Assembly: GCF_023273855.1 (NCBI RefSeq)
Contig: NZ_CP096884.1
Span: 992,001-1,056,000 of the forward strand
Source: Seonamhaeicola sp. ML3
Lineage (GTDB): Bacteria > Bacteroidota > Bacteroidia > Flavobacteriales > Flavobacteriaceae
Direction of reading: 5' to 3'
Length of the DNA stretch: 64,000 nucleotides
Of this stretch, positions 24,465 to 47,576 are shown piece by piece. Every line of letters starts with the position of its first letter. Positions within the stretch are counted from its first letter, which is position 1. The translations under genes and the position numbers were made by a program. Under the pieces are notes generated by a model. The model was not told where the DNA came from. It did no database searches and saw only the letters and a program-made list of their open reading frames with translations.

Positions 24465-26420
24465 ATGCCCAAGAGTTTAATTTTTTCAATGTTTCTTTTA
24501 CTGACTGTTTTCGGTTTTTCCCAACAAACTATTGAAAACGATACCATAAACAGAACGGCTACCATAAATCACAACACCCAAGGCAATGCTGTGGAGTTCA
24601 CTCCTGAAATCCCAACATTAAATCAAATTGCAGGAGCTCCAAAGGCATTTTACACCTATCATTGGGAGTTTGGTGACGGCAATTACAGTAAAGAAAAGAA
24701 CCCAAAGCACACTTATAAAAAGAAAGGCGAATACGAAGTAAAACTTTGGGCCACAAACAATTATGCCAACGGAAAACCACCAACAACAAGACCTAAAAAA
24801 GTAGCTATTAATAATGTTACCGAAGATTATGAAGATATAGCTTCTATGGATGACGATTTCACCTTAAAACGAAATAGAGAGCCTGTTCCTGACCAAGAAA
24901 TGGTTACCATTTTAAGTTACAAAAACACCAAAGACTATATCACCAACGGAAAGTTGTATTTGTTCTACAACGAACTTAAATATAAGAACGACAATTTCGA
25001 GTTAATTGAAACCAGAACACATCACAACGAAAAAGATATTTCTAATAGTGGTTTTGCCTACACCCATAATATTGATGACGACAGAACTTATATAGCATCT
25101 TTAAATGATGATTTAATTGAAAGTACCCTAACACTTCAAGATTCCACCGAAAAAATGAATTTACCTTTAACCATTCAGGAATCAAAAGGTATTTACAAAA
25201 ACTGGAGCTTACTGGAATTTGACAATATGCAACCTAATGAGGAACGCAATATATTTTTCAGTTTAAAAACTACTCCTGAGATGGTGAAAGACACCAGCGC
25301 TATCATTTCGGTTCGGGGTATTTATGTTCCTGATGCTAATTATGACAACCATAAAGTAAAAGATATGGAAATGGAGATTGTGACCTCTCACGACCCCAAT
25401 AAAATGTCTTCTAACGGAACGTTTATGAACTACAGATTTGTTCGGTTTAAAACCTTAAAATATAAAATCAAGTTTCAAAATAATGGTGAAGGTCCTGCCA
25501 GAACCATACGTTTGGAAACTGATATTCCTGAGATGTTAGATAAATCGACTTTAGAAGTCATGGACATGTATCCAAAATGTGATATTTGTCCCAAACGGGA
25601 AGTTTTATATAGTTGTCTCGACACTACTTTTACAGAGAATCAAGCCATATTCACTTTTAAAAATATTTACTTACCAGGGAGTGAACAGAAGAACGTTAAG
25701 GAATACGATTCTACAAAAGGTTTTGTAAAGTACAAGATAAAATTTGCCAAAGACTTTCATAAGAAGAAAACCAAAAGTAGAACAACCATTATTTTTGATA
25801 AAAACGAGCCTATTTTAACTAACTATTCTACTACAAGGTTTTTACCAGGCATCTCAGTCGGGATAAAAACGGGATATAACTCGTTTAGCGATTTAAATAA
25901 TTCCGAAAGTTATTTTATTGGGGCAACCTTGTCGCCTTATAAATCATATCGTTGGTATTGGCAGGTGGAACTGATGAACAATTTTCACAACTATGATTCG
26001 AGCACGAATGTCGTAGATGAAATTGTAGATGATGCTTCGGGCTTTAGGTTCCGGCAGCTAACTACCACCAATTCAAGTTTTGAAAATATAGATTGGGATA
26101 TCCCCATATTACTAAAATACAACGTGAATAATTTCATAGGTCTTGGAGTCGGTTTACAGAACACGATTTCAATAAGTGAAAACCAAAACCAAAACGTTTT
26201 AATAGAACAATTTGAAGGCGTTCAACCCGGTGCACCAGTTATTAATATTATTGAAGATAGTTCTAGCAATTCAGACTCGTTCACCAACCTCAGAACAGGA
26301 TTCCTAGTTGAAGCCACCGCTGGTTTTTCTAGAATTGGCCCAAGTGTTGGTGCACGTTATATCATGAACTTTGAAGATAATTTTAATTATTGGCAGTTCT
26401 TTGCTATCTGGAAATTCTAG
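24465..26420 (+). CDS. PKD-domain exported protein with a DUF7619-like module and C-terminal barrel-like region
   Basis: 651 residues with a signal peptide (FGFSQQT). A PKD domain lies at about residues 45-110 (YHWEFGDG, then HTYKKKGEYEVKLWATN). Around residues 310-460 is a DUF7619-like module (SHDPNKM, LKYKIKFQNNGEGPARTIRL, TIIFDKNEPILTN). The last 190 residues alternate strands and end in FAIWKF, as outer-membrane barrels do. The combination suggests an outer-membrane protein with exposed adhesive domains. It may be transcribed with the CHAT gene 88 bases on. Confidence 0.7.
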   Translation: MPKSLIFSMFLLLTVFGFSQQTIENDTINRTATINHNTQGNAVEFTPEIPTLNQIAGAPKAFYTYHWEFGDGNYSKEKNPKHTYKKKGEYEVKLWATNNYANGKPPTTRPKKVAINNVTEDYEDIASMDDDFTLKRNREPVPDQEMVTILSYKNTKDYITNGKLYLFYNELKYKNDNFELIETRTHHNEKDISNSGFAYTHNIDDDRTYIASLNDDLIESTLTLQDSTEKMNLPLTIQESKGIYKNWSLLEFDNMQPNEERNIFFSLKTTPEMVKDTSAIISVRGIYVPDANYDNHKVKDMEMEIVTSHDPNKMSSNGTFMNYRFVRFKTLKYKIKFQNNGEGPARTIRLETDIPEMLDKSTLEVMDMYPKCDICPKREVLYSCLDTTFTENQAIFTFKNIYLPGSEQKNVKEYDSTKGFVKYKIKFAKDFHKKKTKSRTTIIFDKNEPILTNYSTTRFLPGISVGIKTGYNSFSDLNNSESYFIGATLSPYKSYRWYWQVELMNNFHNYDSSTNVVDEIVDDASGFRFRQLTTTNSSFENIDWDIPILLKYNVNNFIGLGVGLQNTISISENQNQNVLIEQFEGVQPGAPVINIIEDSSSNSDSFTNLRTGFLVEATAGFSRIGPSVGARYIMNFEDNFNYWQFFAIWKF

Positions 26421-26508
26421 TGCCTAGTGGCTAAGCCACTTTTGGCAGTTCACTCAAACTAAATACCCTGCAAGGATTAGTAAACCTTGTATATCTGTAA
26501 AAACATTA

Positions 26509-29046
26509 ATGAAAAAACTACTATTCTTTTTTATCCTTATCCATGGCTTTTGCTTTTCACAAGACCTTGAAGAATCGATTTATGTGGCGGCCGAAACCTT
26601 TATGGCTAATCCCAATGAGTCATCGCTTCAAACTTTAACACAACAAGAATTAGAATTTAAAACCCAAGTCAAAACTAAAGACGAACAATTGGCTTTGGTC
26701 TTTTTACAAAGTCATAAAGGCTATTATTTAGACACCTATTCCAGATTAAAGGAAGCCATTGCTACTTATGAAGATGCTGTGAAACGGTTTAATGATAACG
26801 ACCTTTCAAAATTATCTGACTTTGATATTATTGAAAGTTGTATGATTCCATTGGGGAATTTATATACTAAAACTGGCGACTTTACTAATGCCTTGAACAC
26901 TATCAATCAGTACGTGTTTCTAGCCGAACAACATAAAAACTTCCAGCATCAAATTAGTGGCGCTATTAATCTTTCAAAATTATACTATACTATTGGTGAA
27001 CATGATTTGGTAATAATCATAGTCGATAAGGCCTTAAAAATTCCTAATATTTCTAATCCGGAAAGGGAGCAATTGCTTTACATAAAGAACAACAGTCTTA
27101 TTAAATCAAATGAACTGGCAAGTTTTGAAGAAGAAGTAAATGCTCTTGATACCGAACAAACATACAAATTACATCTTACAACAGGCAACTACGAAAAAGC
27201 CTTAACTGAATTTCAAGAATACAAAAAGAAAATATTCACTAACAAAGAGTTGTCTAGACGGCAAATAGCTCAAGTATATATTGAAGAAGCCCAGGTTTAT
27301 TTTGTAAACAACAATTCAGTAAAAGCAAAGGAATTATTGCAACTAGCGCTTCGCACACTACTTCCTGATTTCAAGCTAAATCGCCTACCCGATAAAGCTC
27401 TACTTTACGAGGAAAACAAGTTCATTGATATTTTCGATTTGTATGCTGAAATTGAAACCAATCCAGAGGAGATTTTAAAAAGCTATGATTTGAGTTTTTA
27501 TGTTTCCGATTTACTAAAAAGCAATTGGACTACACAAAAGACAAAGACCTTAAACGAAAGCAATAACCGGATAAGAAGCGAAAAGTGTATCGATTTACTT
27601 TTCAATATGTTTCAAAAAACGAAAGATGCAACACTTTTAGTTAAAGCCTTTGAATATTCTGAAAACACCAAAGTATTTACCCTAAAAGAAACGTTTCAGA
27701 TGAAACAACGTTTAGAAAAACACCCAACAGACAGCTTATTAATTCTGGAATACCAACTTATAAAAAAGCAAGAGCGTATTACAAGTAAATTGGTTATTGA
27801 AGAACTTGAAAATAATAGAGCCTCTGAAATAAATAGGTTAAGCAAACAACTAAGCGACATTAGTTTAAAATTGAAATCCTTAAAACCTCCCATTTTAAAA
27901 AAGTACGGAGAGCTAGAAAGTTTTATTTCCATTACAGACCTACAAAAAAAATTACATGAAGACAATGCCGTTTTAGTCGAATACTTTTATGGTAAAAACA
28001 TGATTTATCAATTCATAATTTCAAGCTCCACAATTGAATTGAATGAGGTTGCAGAAACCAAAAACGCAAAAACTCCAATTTTAGAATTCATTCACCTTTT
28101 TGACGATGCGGCTGTTATTAATAATGATATTTCTAGCTACACCTCAAAGGCACATCAATTGTATAAACTACTCAAACTTGATGCTGTTTCAAAATGGAAA
28201 AATGTCATTATTGTCCCCGACAGTTTTCTCAATTTCATTCCTTTTGAAACGCTTTTAAGCGAGGAGACCAAAACCTCATCGTTTTCAAAAATGCCCTTTG
28301 TGGTAAAATCGCAAAACATCGTTTATAATTCCAGTGCTTGTTTTTACACAACTGAAATCACTCCAAAATCAAATGCTAATTTATTGGGTGTCTTTCCTGT
28401 ATTCGAAAACACGAATAGAGCATTAACCTTCTCGCTAAACGAAGCAGCGGTCATTCAAGATGAAACTACCTCTGATGTATTATTTAATGAAAACGCCACT
28501 AAACTAAACTTCCTCAAGAAAGCCCCAAACTATGGTCTACTCCATCTATCAACCCATGCCAGTTCTGGTACTTCTAGAAAGCCGGCAAATATAGAGTTCT
28601 ATGATAACACTCTTTATGTAGATGAATTATATGGGCTTGACCTTAACCCTAATCTAGTGGTTTTAAGTGCCTGCGAAACTGGTATTGGAAAACTTTATAA
28701 AGCCGAAGGCGCGATGAGCATCTCAAGAGGCTTTCAATATTCGGGAGCCAAGAATTTGTTGTTCTCGTTATGGCAAATAAATGATTTATCGACTTCACAG
28801 ATTATGCAATCGTTTTATAAAAACTTCGGAGACACGCAGTCGGCTTTTCTAGCCAACCAAAATTCTAAACTGGAGTATCTTCAAAATGAATCAATCAGTA
28901 ACTCTAAAAAGTCGCCTTACTATTGGGGGGCTTTTGTGTATTATGGTGACCTTTCGTATCCAGATTCCAGACCCTATCTGTGGTACGTAATCATATTCGG
29001 GTTAGTATTTTTTATTATAGTATTTTTACGTTCTAAATTTAAATAG
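26509..29046 (+). CDS. TPR-CHAT caspase-like protease, exported and membrane-anchored
   Basis: 845 residues. A signal peptide (ending near FCFSQ) is followed by TPR-like helices over about residues 50-340 and a coiled stretch to 480. The CHAT domain occupies about 480-815 and keeps both catalytic residues: His683 in LHLSTHASSG and Cys722 in VVLSACETGIG. A single helix at the very end (IIFGLVFFIIVFL) would anchor it in the inner membrane. With the signal peptide this puts the protease in the periplasm. CHAT domains belong to the separase/caspase clan. The stop is 4 bases before the aspartic protease gene, so they are one operon. Substrate unknown; the periplasmic TPR part of the anti-sigma-like protein at 21261 is an attractive guess. 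Confidence 0.88.
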   Translation: MKKLLFFFILIHGFCFSQDLEESIYVAAETFMANPNESSLQTLTQQELEFKTQVKTKDEQLALVFLQSHKGYYLDTYSRLKEAIATYEDAVKRFNDNDLSKLSDFDIIESCMIPLGNLYTKTGDFTNALNTINQYVFLAEQHKNFQHQISGAINLSKLYYTIGEHDLVIIIVDKALKIPNISNPEREQLLYIKNNSLIKSNELASFEEEVNALDTEQTYKLHLTTGNYEKALTEFQEYKKKIFTNKELSRRQIAQVYIEEAQVYFVNNNSVKAKELLQLALRTLLPDFKLNRLPDKALLYEENKFIDIFDLYAEIETNPEEILKSYDLSFYVSDLLKSNWTTQKTKTLNESNNRIRSEKCIDLLFNMFQKTKDATLLVKAFEYSENTKVFTLKETFQMKQRLEKHPTDSLLILEYQLIKKQERITSKLVIEELENNRASEINRLSKQLSDISLKLKSLKPPILKKYGELESFISITDLQKKLHEDNAVLVEYFYGKNMIYQFIISSSTIELNEVAETKNAKTPILEFIHLFDDAAVINNDISSYTSKAHQLYKLLKLDAVSKWKNVIIVPDSFLNFIPFETLLSEETKTSSFSKMPFVVKSQNIVYNSSACFYTTEITPKSNANLLGVFPVFENTNRALTFSLNEAAVIQDETTSDVLFNENATKLNFLKKAPNYGLLHLSTHASSGTSRKPANIEFYDNTLYVDELYGLDLNPNLVVLSACETGIGKLYKAEGAMSISRGFQYSGAKNLLFSLWQINDLSTSQIMQSFYKNFGDTQSAFLANQNSKLEYLQNESISNSKKSPYYWGAFVYYGDLSYPDSRPYLWYVIIFGLVFFIIVFLRSKFK

Positions 29047-29050
29047 CCTT

Positions 29051-29494
29051 ATGAACACTACTTTACAAGAATTTCTTTTGAATAAGGGTTATACTAAGAT
29101 AAAATTACACCTTACCAGAACCAATCACTTTGAGATTAAGGCTTCAATAAATGGACAAAAAGGTGTGTTTATATTAGATACAGGAGCTTCTAGCTCATGT
29201 GTCGGGTTTGAAAGTGTTGACACCTTTAAACTTACAACTGAGGATTCTGCCATAAAGGCTGCTGGAGCAGGTGCTATAGACATGGAGACTAAAATGTCTA
29301 AGAAAAATAAAGTCAAAATAGGCAAATGGCGTCATGATAAAGTAGTTTTGGTTCTATTTAACTTAACCCATGTAAATACTGCGTTGATTAATCACGATTC
29401 TAAACCTGTTGATGGTATTATAGGTGCAGACATTCTAAAAAAAGGGAAAGCCATCATAGATTATCAGAAGAAATATTTATATTTAAAATTATAA
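29051..29494 (+). CDS. Retropepsin-like aspartic protease
   Basis: 147 residues, one lobe only, so activity would need a dimer as in retroviral proteases. The catalytic Asp43 is in FILDTGASSS and the second conserved stretch is DGIIGADILKKGKAIIDY. No signal peptide or membrane helix is seen, so it should be cytoplasmic, unlike the CHAT partner. It lies 4 bases after the CHAT gene and 19 bases before the response regulator gene. Substrate unknown. Confidence 0.85.
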   Translation: MNTTLQEFLLNKGYTKIKLHLTRTNHFEIKASINGQKGVFILDTGASSSCVGFESVDTFKLTTEDSAIKAAGAGAIDMETKMSKKNKVKIGKWRHDKVVLVLFNLTHVNTALINHDSKPVDGIIGADILKKGKAIIDYQKKYLYLKL

Positions 29495-29513
29495 ATTTTC
29501 TATCTCTCCAAAC

Positions 29514-30146
29514 ATGAATACATCGATTGTTATTGCAGACGATCACCCATTAATGCTTAGAGGTTTAACCGATTTCTTAAACTCTAAAGGGTTTAATATA
29601 GTTGGTAGCGCCACAGATGGAAATTCAGCCTATAATCTTATCGTAAAATTAAAACCCGAGATTGCCATTCTAGATATTAGAATGCCTTACAAAACAGGAC
29701 TTGAAATAGCTGAAGATTGTATAAAGAATGATTTACCTACCAAAATTATTCTTATCACTTTTGACAAGGAAGAAGAACTTTATGAAAAAGCCAAGAGTCT
29801 TAATGTTTACGGTTATATTTTAAAAGATTTTGCTGTTGAAGAAATTGAAACTTGCATAGAACAAGTCATAAATAACAAACCTTATTTTAGTGAGGAGATT
29901 GTACAATCTCTCAACTCCAGCCCAATAAATAGTCACCTAGAAGAGCTCGAAAAACTTACTAGGTCGGAACTCAAAATAGTAAAGTTAATAGCAGAAAACA
30001 AAACAAGTCATTGCATTGCTGAAGAACTTTCAATTTCTGTTAGAACTGTTGACAAACATAGAAGTAATATTGTAGCTAAACTAGGTCTGGATAACAAGCC
30101 TACATCGCTTTCCATATGGGCTAATTTAAACAAAGAACACCTCTAA
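29514..30146 (+). CDS. Orphan NarL/LuxR-type response regulator
   Basis: 210 residues. The receiver domain (1-120) has the acidic pair ADDHP, phospho-acceptor Asp54 in ILDIRMP, the conserved Thr in ILITF and Lys in YILKD. The C-terminal HTH (about 145-205) reads LTRSELKIVKLIAENKTSHC then SISVRTVDKHRSNI. No histidine kinase is encoded next to it. It closes the CHAT-protease operon. A dyad suited to a dimeric regulator starts three bases after its stop codon, and a second lies at 30295, each before a candidate small RNA, which suggests direct targets. Confidence 0.93.
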   Translation: MNTSIVIADDHPLMLRGLTDFLNSKGFNIVGSATDGNSAYNLIVKLKPEIAILDIRMPYKTGLEIAEDCIKNDLPTKIILITFDKEEELYEKAKSLNVYGYILKDFAVEEIETCIEQVINNKPYFSEEIVQSLNSSPINSHLEELEKLTRSELKIVKLIAENKTSHCIAEELSISVRTVDKHRSNIVAKLGLDNKPTSLSIWANLNKEHL

Positions 30147-30172
30147 AATACGTAGAACTGCGTATTTTTTTT
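30145..30172 (+). terminator. Terminator of the CHAT-protease operon, overlapping a dyad
   Basis: AAAATACG (30145-30152) pairs with CGTATTTT (30161-30168), followed by T to 30172. It overlaps the regulator's stop codon. The same bases form the dyad described in the next entry, so DNA and RNA roles may be combined. Confidence 0.6.
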
Positions 30173-30195
30173 ACTTGTCGTAAAACTTATCTTTA
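30149..30195 (+). promoter_or_regulatory. Candidate regulator-bound promoter 1
   Basis: Dyad TACGTAGAACTGCGTA at 30149-30164 (half sites TACGTAG and CTGCGTA, 2-base spacer), then a T-tract, then TATCTTTA at 30188-30195 as a -7-like box 39 bases from the dyad start. No -33 TTTG is well placed, fitting an activator-dependent promoter. Confidence 0.5.
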
Positions 30196-30199
30196 CAAT

Positions 30200-30271
30200 G
30201 CTATTAATTAGTTCTTAGGGAGAATTAAGAGAGCTCTGGTATTTTAACAATCTGGAGCTCTCACTTTTTTT
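30200..30271 (+). ncRNA. Candidate small RNA 1 after the response regulator
   Basis: Predicted transcript of about 70 bases beginning near GCTATTAA (30200). Hairpin 1 pairs TTAGTTCT with AGAATTAA around a TAGGG loop. Hairpin 2 pairs GAGAGCTC (30229-30236) with GAGCTCTC (30255-30262), followed by ACTTTTTTT as an intrinsic terminator. No ORF. Similar order of parts occurs in the next unit at 30347. Confidence 0.5.
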
Positions 30272-30294
30272 GTCACCATATCAAATCTAAAAAT

Positions 30295-30341
30295 TACGTA
30301 CAAGTGCTTATTTTTTGTTTGAAACTTGAAACCTAATTTTA
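30295..30341 (+). promoter_or_regulatory. Candidate regulator-bound promoter 2
   Basis: Dyad TACGTACAAGTGCTTA at 30295-30310 matches the first dyad at 13 of 16 positions; the inner G/C pair has become C/G, so symmetry is kept. TAATTTTA at 30334-30341 is again exactly 39 bases from the dyad start. Confidence 0.5.
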
Positions 30342-30346
30342 TAAGC

Positions 30347-30426
30347 GCTATTAAGCTATTTATAATTCTTTTTTGAGAGATAGAATTATTGAACCAGGCT
30401 CTGCACTTTTAGTGCAGAGCTCTTTT
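30347..30426 (+). ncRNA. Candidate small RNA 2 after the response regulator
   Basis: Predicted transcript of about 80 bases beginning near GCTATTAA (30347). Hairpin 1 pairs ATAATTCT with AGAATTAT. Hairpin 2 is a perfect 10-base stem, GCTCTGCACT (30398-30407) and AGTGCAGAGC (30411-30420), followed by TCTTTT. Same layout as the unit at 30200. Read-through could reach the small ORF at 30442. Confidence 0.5.
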
Positions 30427-30441
30427 AAACTTTCGTGTAGA

Positions 30442-30555
30442 ATGACAAACTCAATGAGAAGAAAAACCGTGGTTTTACAGAAAATCTGTGTGGTTAGCCT
30501 TTTCATTCTAGTAGTAATTATTATTTCAATAAATATTATTATTTGTTTTAGTTAA
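30442..30555 (+). CDS. Possible 37-residue membrane peptide
   Basis: From ATG 30442 (or ATG 30454) the frame encodes a basic start (MRRKTVVLQK) and one long hydrophobic helix (VVSLFILVVIIISINIIICF). A charged N terminus plus a single helix fits a small membrane protein. No clear ribosome binding site and no homologue recalled. It sits after the second small RNA unit and before a bidirectional terminator. It may be chance in AT-rich DNA. Confidence 0.3.
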   Translation: MTNSMRRKTVVLQKICVVSLFILVVIIISINIIICFS

Positions 30556-30567
30556 TTGGATTAAAAC

Positions 30568-30604
30568 AAAAAAAGGGATGCTCGTAAGAACATCCCTTTT
30601 TTTT
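30568..30604. terminator. Bidirectional terminator
   Basis: AAAAAAAGGGATG (30568-30580) and CATCCCTTTTTTTT (30591-30604) form a stem flanked by A and T runs on both sides. It ends transcription from the left and the sucA-odhB operon from the right. Confidence 0.85.
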
Positions 30605-30618
30605 GAATAATAATACCC

Positions 30619-31830
30619 TTATAACTCTAATGCTTTTTTAACATCGTTGTTCATTAATATCTCTATTGGATTTTCTAAGGCTTCTTTAACTGCAACCAAG
30701 AAACCAACGCTTTCCTTTCCATCTATAATTCTATGATCATAAGATAAGGCTACGTACATAATAGGACGTATCTCTACTTTTCCATCTACCGCAACAGGAC
30801 GCTCAACAATATTGTGCATTCCTAAAATACCACTTTGTGGTGGATTAATAATTGGTGTAGATAACATACTACCAAACACACCTCCATTGGTAATAGTAAA
30901 CGTACCACCTGTCATTTCATCAACTGTAATCTGTCCGTCTCTTGCTCTAAGCGCTAAACGTTTTACTTCAGATTCAACACCTCTAAAACTAAGGTTTTCA
31001 GCATTTCTAATTACCGGCACCATAAGACCTTTAGGTCCAGAAACAGCTATGCTTATATCACAGAAATCGTAAGACAACATTTCTTTCCCATCTATCATAG
31101 AATTTACAGCTGGGAACATTTTCAAAGCACGAACAACTGCCAATGTAAAGAAACTCATAAACCCTAAACTAACACCATGCTTAGATTTAAACGTTTCTTT
31201 ATACTCGCTTCTTAAAGCGAAAATAGGCGACATATCAACCTCGTTGAATGTGGTTAGCATCGCTGTTGTATTTTTAGCCTCAACTAAACGCTCGGCTACT
31301 TTACGACGTAGCATAGACATTTTACTTCTAGAAGTACCTCGGCTTCCACCTGTTGGAGTACCCATTGAAGGAACCGCCTTAATAGCATCGTCTTTAGTAA
31401 CTCTGCCATCTTTTCCTGTTCCACTTACAGCAGCAGCATCAATACCTTTCTCCGCCAATATCTTTTTTGCAGCTGGACTTGCTGTTCCGGTTGCGTAAGT
31501 AGCTTCTTGTTTAGCTTGAGCAGGAGCCGCTTCTACCTTTGCAGGTTCTTCTTTTTCTTCAGGCTTGGCCGCTTCGTCACCCTCTGGCTTTTCAGCACTA
31601 GTATCTATAAGACAAACCACAGCACCTACCTCTACAGCATCACCTTCTTCTGCCTTTAATGTAATAGTACCACTAACTTCTGCAGGAAGCTCAAGCGTTG
31701 CTTTATCGCTATCTACCTCAGCAATGGCTTGGTCTTTTTCAACATAATCGCCATCTTCTACTAACCATGTAGCTATTTCTACTTCGGTAATAGACTCTCC
31801 TGGTGATGGTACTTTCATTTCTAAAATCAT
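30619..31830 (-). CDS. odhB: Dihydrolipoyllysine succinyltransferase (E2 of 2-oxoglutarate dehydrogenase)
   Basis: 403 residues. One lipoyl domain (1-75) with the lipoylated Lys in [13 protein letters not shown], an Ala/Pro/Glu linker, a peripheral-subunit-binding domain (about 115-150, [15 protein letters not shown]) and the acyltransferase core (about 175-403). The active site is [11 protein letters not shown]. It transfers succinyl groups to CoA in the TCA cycle. It follows sucA by 40 bases in one operon and ends at a bidirectional terminator. E3 is not in the window. Confidence 0.96.
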
Positions 31831-47412: not shown

Positions 47413-47576
47413 GACAACGGTTTTGTGTATGGTTTCGATGCATGTTTGGTTACTAAGTTATTAGATATTACTGGTGTTAGTTCGGTACGAGGATTTTCCG
47501 AAAGGAAAATCAGAAGCCAGCAAATGAGCAACTAACTTTGATTTAGCTAAAACTAGCTATTTTTTTTAAACGTTGT
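47413..47576. repeat. Long imperfect inverted repeat with a perfect hairpin inside (cassette-like)
   Basis: ACAACG (47413-47418) and CGTTGT (47571-47576) bound the spacer. Inside, GATTTTCC, GAAA, GGAAAATC at 47492-47511 is a perfect hairpin. The gene at 47593 is itself bounded by GTTGTAGCC at 47575 and GGCTACAAC at 48285. Confidence 0.4.

Follow-up and report, generated by a model that had tools for sequence, protein, structure and literature searches.

The REC-LuxR response regulator gene at 29514-30146 (+ strand) of the Seonamhaeicola sp. ML3 sequence analysed here is followed by two tandem copies of a very conserved predicted small-RNA family, the anatomy of which is conserved behind the orthologous regulator genes of relatives. 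The locus is fairly likely to be a feedback circuit, in which the regulator would activate small RNAs that limit the regulator's own translation. In the literature examined, descriptions of small-RNA control in Flavobacteriaceae seem few (one transcriptome study). The locus defines a family of RNAs found in dozens of genera, together with its probable activators, operators and a base-pairing target. Limited searches of the open-access PMC literature did not find this RNA family, or such a self-limiting circuit, described.

Anatomy and conservation of the twin units

The stretch of 64,000 nucleotides that was analysed (hereafter the window, to which all bare positions refer) is part of a 3.47-Mb chromosome. 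In a protein search of GTDB contigs, from which the best 80 of 245 relatives were kept (65-87% identity), the closest named regulator loci were from Seonamhaeicola, Flavobacteriaceae. Both domains of the regulator, REC (Response_reg, 4.2e-22) and LuxR/GerE HTH (GerE, 1.2e-11), were over the Pfam cut-offs, which identifies it as a response regulator of the NarL/FixJ type; no AAA+ domain was found in it by the Pfam domain scan, and no kinase gene was found among its scanned neighbour genes. Directly 5' of the regulator lies a retropepsin-like aspartic protease gene (29051-29494, + strand; Asp_protease_2, 1e-11), a homologue of which was present upstream on the same strand in 80/80 loci, making it the regulator's constant neighbour. 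Genes for a TPR-CHAT protein and a PKD protein are also located upstream, and a convergent gene downstream is, from its sequence, presumably odhB-like. A link of the units to the whole upstream operon, drawn in the preliminary description of this DNA, was not upheld, as CHAT and PKD homologues occurred in just 26/80 loci (4 of the 54 negative loci hold less than 4 kb of upstream sequence). The TPR-CHAT and PKD/DUF7849 homologues, which span 24465-29046 in the window, were found in the same 26 loci and form an optional insert 5' of the protease-regulator pair.

Unit 1 begins with dyad 1 (30149-30164, + strand; TACGTAGAACTGCGTA), a class 1 operator (consensus TACGTAnnnnTACGTA) predicted from sequence and kept in relatives. 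A TAnnTTTA box follows at 30188-30195 (+ strand), 39 nt from the dyad start, and then a type A candidate small RNA (30200-30274, + strand) composed of a 5' tail, GCUAUUAA, a hairpin at 30208-30228 with the loop UUAGGGAG, and a terminator at 30229-30262 with a T-run. Unit 2 has the same order of elements on the same strand: dyad 2 (TACGTACAAGTGCTTA, 30295-30310), likewise a class 1 operator predicted from sequence and kept in relatives; a TAnnTTTA box at 30334-30341, again 39 nt from its dyad start; and a type B candidate RNA (30347-30426) with a GAGAGA-loop hairpin at 30362-30389 and a terminator-like hairpin at 30397-30421 carrying a short T-run. The box resembles the Bacteroidota -7 box. The coordinates given earlier for these elements were all correct on recheck of the window sequence, including the agreement of the two dyads at 13/16 bases, the boxes at 30188 and 30334, the occurrence of GCTATTAA at 30200 and 30347 (51 and 52 nt from the dyad starts), and the folding of each unit into a TTCT/AGAA hairpin and a terminator with GAGCTC. 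Where the dyads differ they had been said to keep their symmetry, which applies to positions 7 and 10, but the change at position 14 breaks a pair; 12/16 positions are self-symmetric in dyad 1 and 10/16 in dyad 2. Cross-pairing is possible between the terminator arms of the two units, as expected of related hairpins. A search of the own genome with dyad and box alone (up to 3 mismatches) returned 20 matches against 31 in the reversed control, i.e. not above control; the significance of the units comes from their conservation and the RNA core.

All 80 kept orthologue loci carried 1-7 units 3' of the regulator gene, 182 in total, and 57 of the 80 held two, in agreement with the pairing described earlier. 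By loop, 121 units were type A (AGGG), 45 type B (GAGAG-like) and 16 other. The total excludes dyad-plus-box sites lacking GCTATTAA within 2 mismatches (e.g. the last sites of loci L054, L102 and L104), as well as dyad-like matches within the regulator gene. Dyad-to-box spacing was 39 nt in 180/182 units and 38 nt in the other 2 with offsets of 38-40 allowed, and a wider scan of 34-45 gave 39 again for the units that follow the regulator gene, with two exceptions at 38. The offset from dyad to GCTATTAA was 51 in 163 units, 52 in 12, 53 in 5 and 50 in 2. Within the dyad, the two outer pairs were symmetric in 182/182 units, pair 3-14 in 156, 4-13 in 176 and 6-11 in 175; symmetry was weak at 5-12 (80 units), 7-10 (76) and 8-9 (23). 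A lack of dyad and spacing conservation in relatives had been named beforehand as an observation that would speak against the units; relatives with the same gene instead conserve them. In a second set, assembled by regulator similarity alone from 59 relatives, 15/21 homologues had a unit and 2 a divergent unit; in two others (L012, L016) the dyad was present and the RNA missing, with a peptide-like ORF next, and L020 and L021 were without a unit.

The dyad centre lies near -43 and adjoins the stretch where a -33 element would be expected. TTG was absent from that stretch in 171/182 class 1 units, which fits a promoter needing an activator. The position and conservation of the dyad agree with the earlier proposal that it is placed like an activator site linked to the regulator, and the regulator probably turns on the units. 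At locus L204 (G150:C1:2174300-2177400), the units come straight after the protease gene and retain most of the RNA core; neither a regulator ORF nor a dyad was seen in the stretch, a joint absence that was counted in favour of the circuit.

Two class 1 sites were also observed in front of other genes. At L111:1501-1546 (G000:C1:2789287-2789332), a perfect class 1 dyad and a correctly spaced box lie 5' of a gene for a long protein that looks secreted by eye, and the regulator may control this gene as well. A near-perfect dyad, TACGTGACGGTACGTA, and box (L113:1501-1546; G000:C1:1751292-1751337) precede a 240-aa ORF which resembles a DNA/RNA endonuclease by eye and is without an NCBIfam match.

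The RNA core and the downstream peptide

A 28-nt core, GCTATTAATTAGTTCTTAGGGAGAATTA, was exact in 67/121 type A units. Covariation was assessed in an alignment of 59 chosen type A sequences, comprising 58 of 97 non-redundant sequences and the window unit, with divergent ones excluded. Both hairpins hold across this alignment and double-sided changes were found in 17/22 pairs: hairpin 1 was 97% paired with three double-sided changes, and the terminator had them in all 14 pairs. The covariation score was 0.439 against 0.239 for shuffled alignments, and 0/500 shuffles scored as high. The small-RNA structure proposed in the preliminary description is supported by this covariation. With the covariance model (R1), unit 1, itself a row of the model's own alignment, scored 70 bits, and unit 2 was found weakly at 26.8 bits (E 0.009), the next match in the window, presumably due to chance, reaching 24.5.

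The core pattern GCTATTAATNNNTTCTTAGGGAGAA occurred in 64/299 genomes of the family, spread over 53/236 genera in a draw that took one or two genomes from most genera; the reversed control gave 0 matches. The covariance model matched 89/299 family genomes, some of its training rows being from the same genomes. With up to 1 mismatch the pattern was found in 0/286 genomes outside the family, and also in 0/8 further family members in that draw. No Rfam family, FopS included, reached its gathering threshold over the units, and the 22 weak Rfam matches over 30140-30620 were all under threshold. Elsewhere in the window, a match to Rfam snoR109 at 47472-47555 (34.1 bits against a threshold of 34, E 0.06) is probably due to chance, since snoR109 is an H/ACA snoRNA family.

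Unit 2 is followed by an ORF for a 37-aa peptide with a single membrane span (30442-30555, + strand; MTNSMRRKTVVLQKICVVSLFILVVIIISINIIICFS). NCBIfam gave no match to this ORF. A similar single-span ORF, mostly of 31-39 aa, followed the last unit in 77/81 loci by raw count, window included. The mean T-run was 4.2 for type B units, 2.7 for type C, 4.5 for last type A and 5.1 for inner type A units. The preliminary description had proposed two small RNAs; the paired units do have small-RNA structure, but unit 2 is usually the last before the peptide ORF and tends to a weaker T-run. On these grounds unit 2 may serve as leader to the peptide mRNA no less than as a free small RNA, and could do both. 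If the leader role is extended to all units, they would be leader- or attenuator-type elements of the peptide mRNA and not free small RNAs, in keeping with the frequent peptide ORF, with the T-runs of last units being shorter on average than those of inner units, and with loci such as L102 and L104 in which the peptide has a dyad and box before it but no hairpin. The longer T-runs of inner units argue against such an extension, as do the copies elsewhere in the own genome that are without peptide context (the next gene is convergent at L132, and a 152-aa ORF lies downstream at L193), and it is considered quite improbable.

The regulator mRNA as candidate target

Two roles had been suggested for the purine-rich loops, pairing with an mRNA start region or sequestration of a protein. 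Sequestration of an RNA-binding protein, in the manner of CsrB/RsmZ, would suit the AGGGA-type loops, the several copies in many loci and an activator of the NarL/GacA type. Each RNA has a single loop motif, however, the stem sequence is itself conserved, and the own genome gave no match to Hfq (PF17209; same search positive in 5/14 control genomes), CsrA (positive in 3/14 control genomes) or RRM_1. A decoy for these known candidate proteins was rejected on the latter result, and sequestration as such is regarded as highly improbable.

The pairing role was supported by antisense matches among the 80 loci, and the best-supported target, not named in the preliminary description, is the regulator's own mRNA, to which the RNA probably binds. 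When the core was tested against gene start regions in the surroundings of the 80 loci, the predicted duplex z for the regulator start region averaged -2.19, in contrast to -0.45 to +1.29 for other nearby gene families. The regulator leader often holds TTAATTAATAGC, the complement of the RNA 5' tail, and often CTCCC, CCCTAA or TCTCTC, which are complements of the loops. TTAATAGC was found upstream of the regulator in 31/80 cases against 2/789 other ORFs, and TAATAGC in 48/80 against 6/789, one of the six being an alternative regulator start. Perfect antisense runs of at least 9, 10, 11 and 12 nt were present for 47, 34, 20 and 14 of 80 regulators compared to 55, 15, 2 and 0 of 788 other genes, and the sense control gave 12, 2, 1 and 0 of 80 regulators. 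A tail site was found in 50/80 regulators and 18/788 other genes, a loop match of at least 7 nt in 46/80 and 205/788, and the two together in 26/80 and 2/788. By the looser test of a tail or 7-nt loop match, the numbers were 70/80 and 221/788, and 10/80 loci had neither site. Own RNA-mRNA pairs were also more stable than swapped pairs (-16.50 vs -15.47 kcal/mol; 0/5000 permutations, in a permutation that ignores kinship), the own pair being better than the row mean in 51/81 loci and the column mean in 50/81.

In the window, the complementarity lies with unit 2, whose loop segment GAGAGATAGAA (30375-30385, + strand) is an 11-nt perfect complement of TTCTATCTCTC in the regulator mRNA leader (29498-29508, + strand), 5 nt 5' of the ATG. 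Unit 1 has a longest match of 5 nt, and its core gave a z of -0.67 against the regulator mRNA. For unit 2 the regulator ranked second of 59 ORFs (z -3.36), another window gene having a z of -3.76. A site within a few nucleotides of the ATG favours repression over activation.

Several other candidates were rejected. Long perfect mRNA targets, searched as TTCTCCCTAAGAA with up to 1 mismatch, numbered 119 against 159 for the reversed control in 25 relatives, known RNA genes being included in the counts, and no perfect-complement target motif was above control in those relatives. The peptide mRNA gave a mean z of 0.06 over 76 loci. Other genes with sites in the fetched loci, screened with a first-12-residue filter and a regulator-like-start filter, amounted to three chance-like cases. 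A dedicated regulator promoter was considered from a TAnnTTTn box within 30 nt 5' of the tail complement in 38/50 loci versus 290/2406 random windows; this enrichment was not relied on because some boxes could reflect codon conservation in the protease gene.

The units could instead be regulator-activated small RNAs that act mainly on other mRNAs, with the regulator mRNA a minor target. The core also persists downstream of PAS-LuxR genes, and the mRNAs of these genes match it little, the class 2 and class 3 regulators' own mRNAs having been rejected as targets with runs of at least 9 nt in 1/28 and 0/8 cases, and genome G005 has a class 2 unit while its best match to the class-1-type regulator is weak (E 3.5e-23). 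No convincing second target was seen in the sequence examined, a minor fraction of the genomes, and action mainly on other mRNAs is held to be rather unlikely.

The feedback circuit that we infer, with its activation, transcription, pairing in the cell, repression and role for the peptide, would operate as follows. The REC-LuxR regulator would bind the dyad, whose centre is ~43 nt 5' of the presumed start, and switch on the TAnnTTTA promoter just 3' of it. The products would be type A small RNAs of ~75-80 nt together with the final unit (frequently type B), which perhaps doubles as leader of the peptide mRNA. The unpaired 5' tail and the purine loop (UUAGGGAG or GAGAGA) would then pair with the start region of the regulator mRNA, and this pairing would limit translation of the regulator.

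Related regulators and known systems

Two further copies of the same or a related core, not noted in the preliminary description, were found in the own genome besides the window locus. The copy at L132 lies behind a PAS-LuxR gene and has the dyad AATACTCAAATTGAGTATT (class 2). The copy at L193 has a type-B-like loop and the dyad TACGGAATCCCGTA (class 3); the gene before it encodes a REC-DUF5932 regulator and itself follows a HATPase kinase gene. Both Pfam matches of this regulator were just below the cut-offs. Among relatives, 10/10 PAS-LuxR homologues of at least 64% identity had a class 2 dyad followed by a GCTATTA start, nine as units and one in divergent form, and 4 more distant homologues were without it. 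For class 3, a clear unit was found in 5/26 cases and a degenerate one in 3/26, with L292 and L301, called weak by the script, counted as none because no dyad is present there. A fourth dyad type, AATACCTAAAAATAGGTATT, was observed beside a further GerE protein (L212), and by eye the class 1, class 2 and fourth-type dyads have the common frame AATAC...GTATT. As an exception, the unit at L195 has a class 2 dyad and a different ORF upstream, and some core copies (e.g. L134, L194, L197 and L217) are without a recognisable dyad or regulator nearby. One of these, L134, which is the same as L209 (G182:C14), is an exact core copy with a box, no recognisable dyad and no directly adjoining LuxR gene.

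The RNAs of these other LuxR-type regulators, which have the same or a closely related core, could also act on the class 1 regulator and on further targets. Runs of at least 9 nt between other-class RNAs and the same genome's class 1 regulator mRNA were found in 13/26 cases, all 13 of class 2, against 3/26 in the sense control; some runs fall outside the tail and loop, 2 of 28 planned cases gave no unit, and the cases come from genomes other than the window's own. These observations suggest that one RNA core can be common to several regulators. A broader reading, to which we give about equal weight for and against, is that the near-invariant core is a plug-in output module under at least three, probably four, LuxR-type regulators with similarly placed operators of their own, which could thereby act on a common set of targets, the mRNA of the class 1 regulator being the node where they meet, in an own genome with no detected Hfq, CsrA or RRM.

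Among known systems, Rfp18 of Flavobacterium psychrophilum is described as a conserved flavobacterial small RNA with at least 3 stem-loops and predicted metalloprotease targets, and the word LuxR is absent from the text (PMC9723704). By this description it appears different from the units. FopS/GibS of Bacteroides is a paralogous small-RNA family that pairs near start codons (PMC11697453), and so shares with the units the phylum, the paralogous small RNAs and the start-codon pairing. For GibS, the cited passages report a promoter motif for an unknown factor and mention no neighbouring regulator gene (PMC11697453). The units, unlike FopS, have no match to RF04319 in Rfam, and the own genome has no RRM_1 match.

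The closest likeness on the activator side is the GacA-Rsm system, in which a palindromic upstream site serves several small RNAs, RsmX/Y/Z, with GGA motifs (PMC2375449). The two share a NarL-type regulator, a palindromic site and several small RNAs; they differ in that the own genome here has no CsrA/RsmA match and the evidence points to mRNA pairing. GacA is a NarL-type regulator, and UvrY-CsrB is a comparable system. In contrast to the several GGA motifs of CsrB/RsmZ, type A units have one AGGGA, at the hairpin 1 loop, and in window unit 1 another GGA sits in the terminator stem.

The closest working likeness is LuxO-Qrr of Vibrio. The Qrr small RNAs are Hfq dependent, and their activation by LuxO, an NtrC-type regulator, is sigma-54 dependent. 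In this system the response regulator LuxO activates several related small RNAs that repress the regulator's own mRNA, giving negative feedback (PMC3262071). Own-mRNA repression is proposed here from antisense matches, which are strong by sequence among the relatives. In contrast to LuxO-Qrr, the regulator here is of the REC-LuxR type without an AAA+ domain found, several copies often stand in a row downstream of the regulator gene, and a core that is identical or related is also found with further regulators; the own genome gave no Hfq match. The units do not qualify as members of Qrr or Rsm: no Hfq or CsrA match was found in the own genome, and the activator type differs from LuxO. The comparison suggests that a Qrr-like feedback design arose separately in bacteria where Hfq is undetected.
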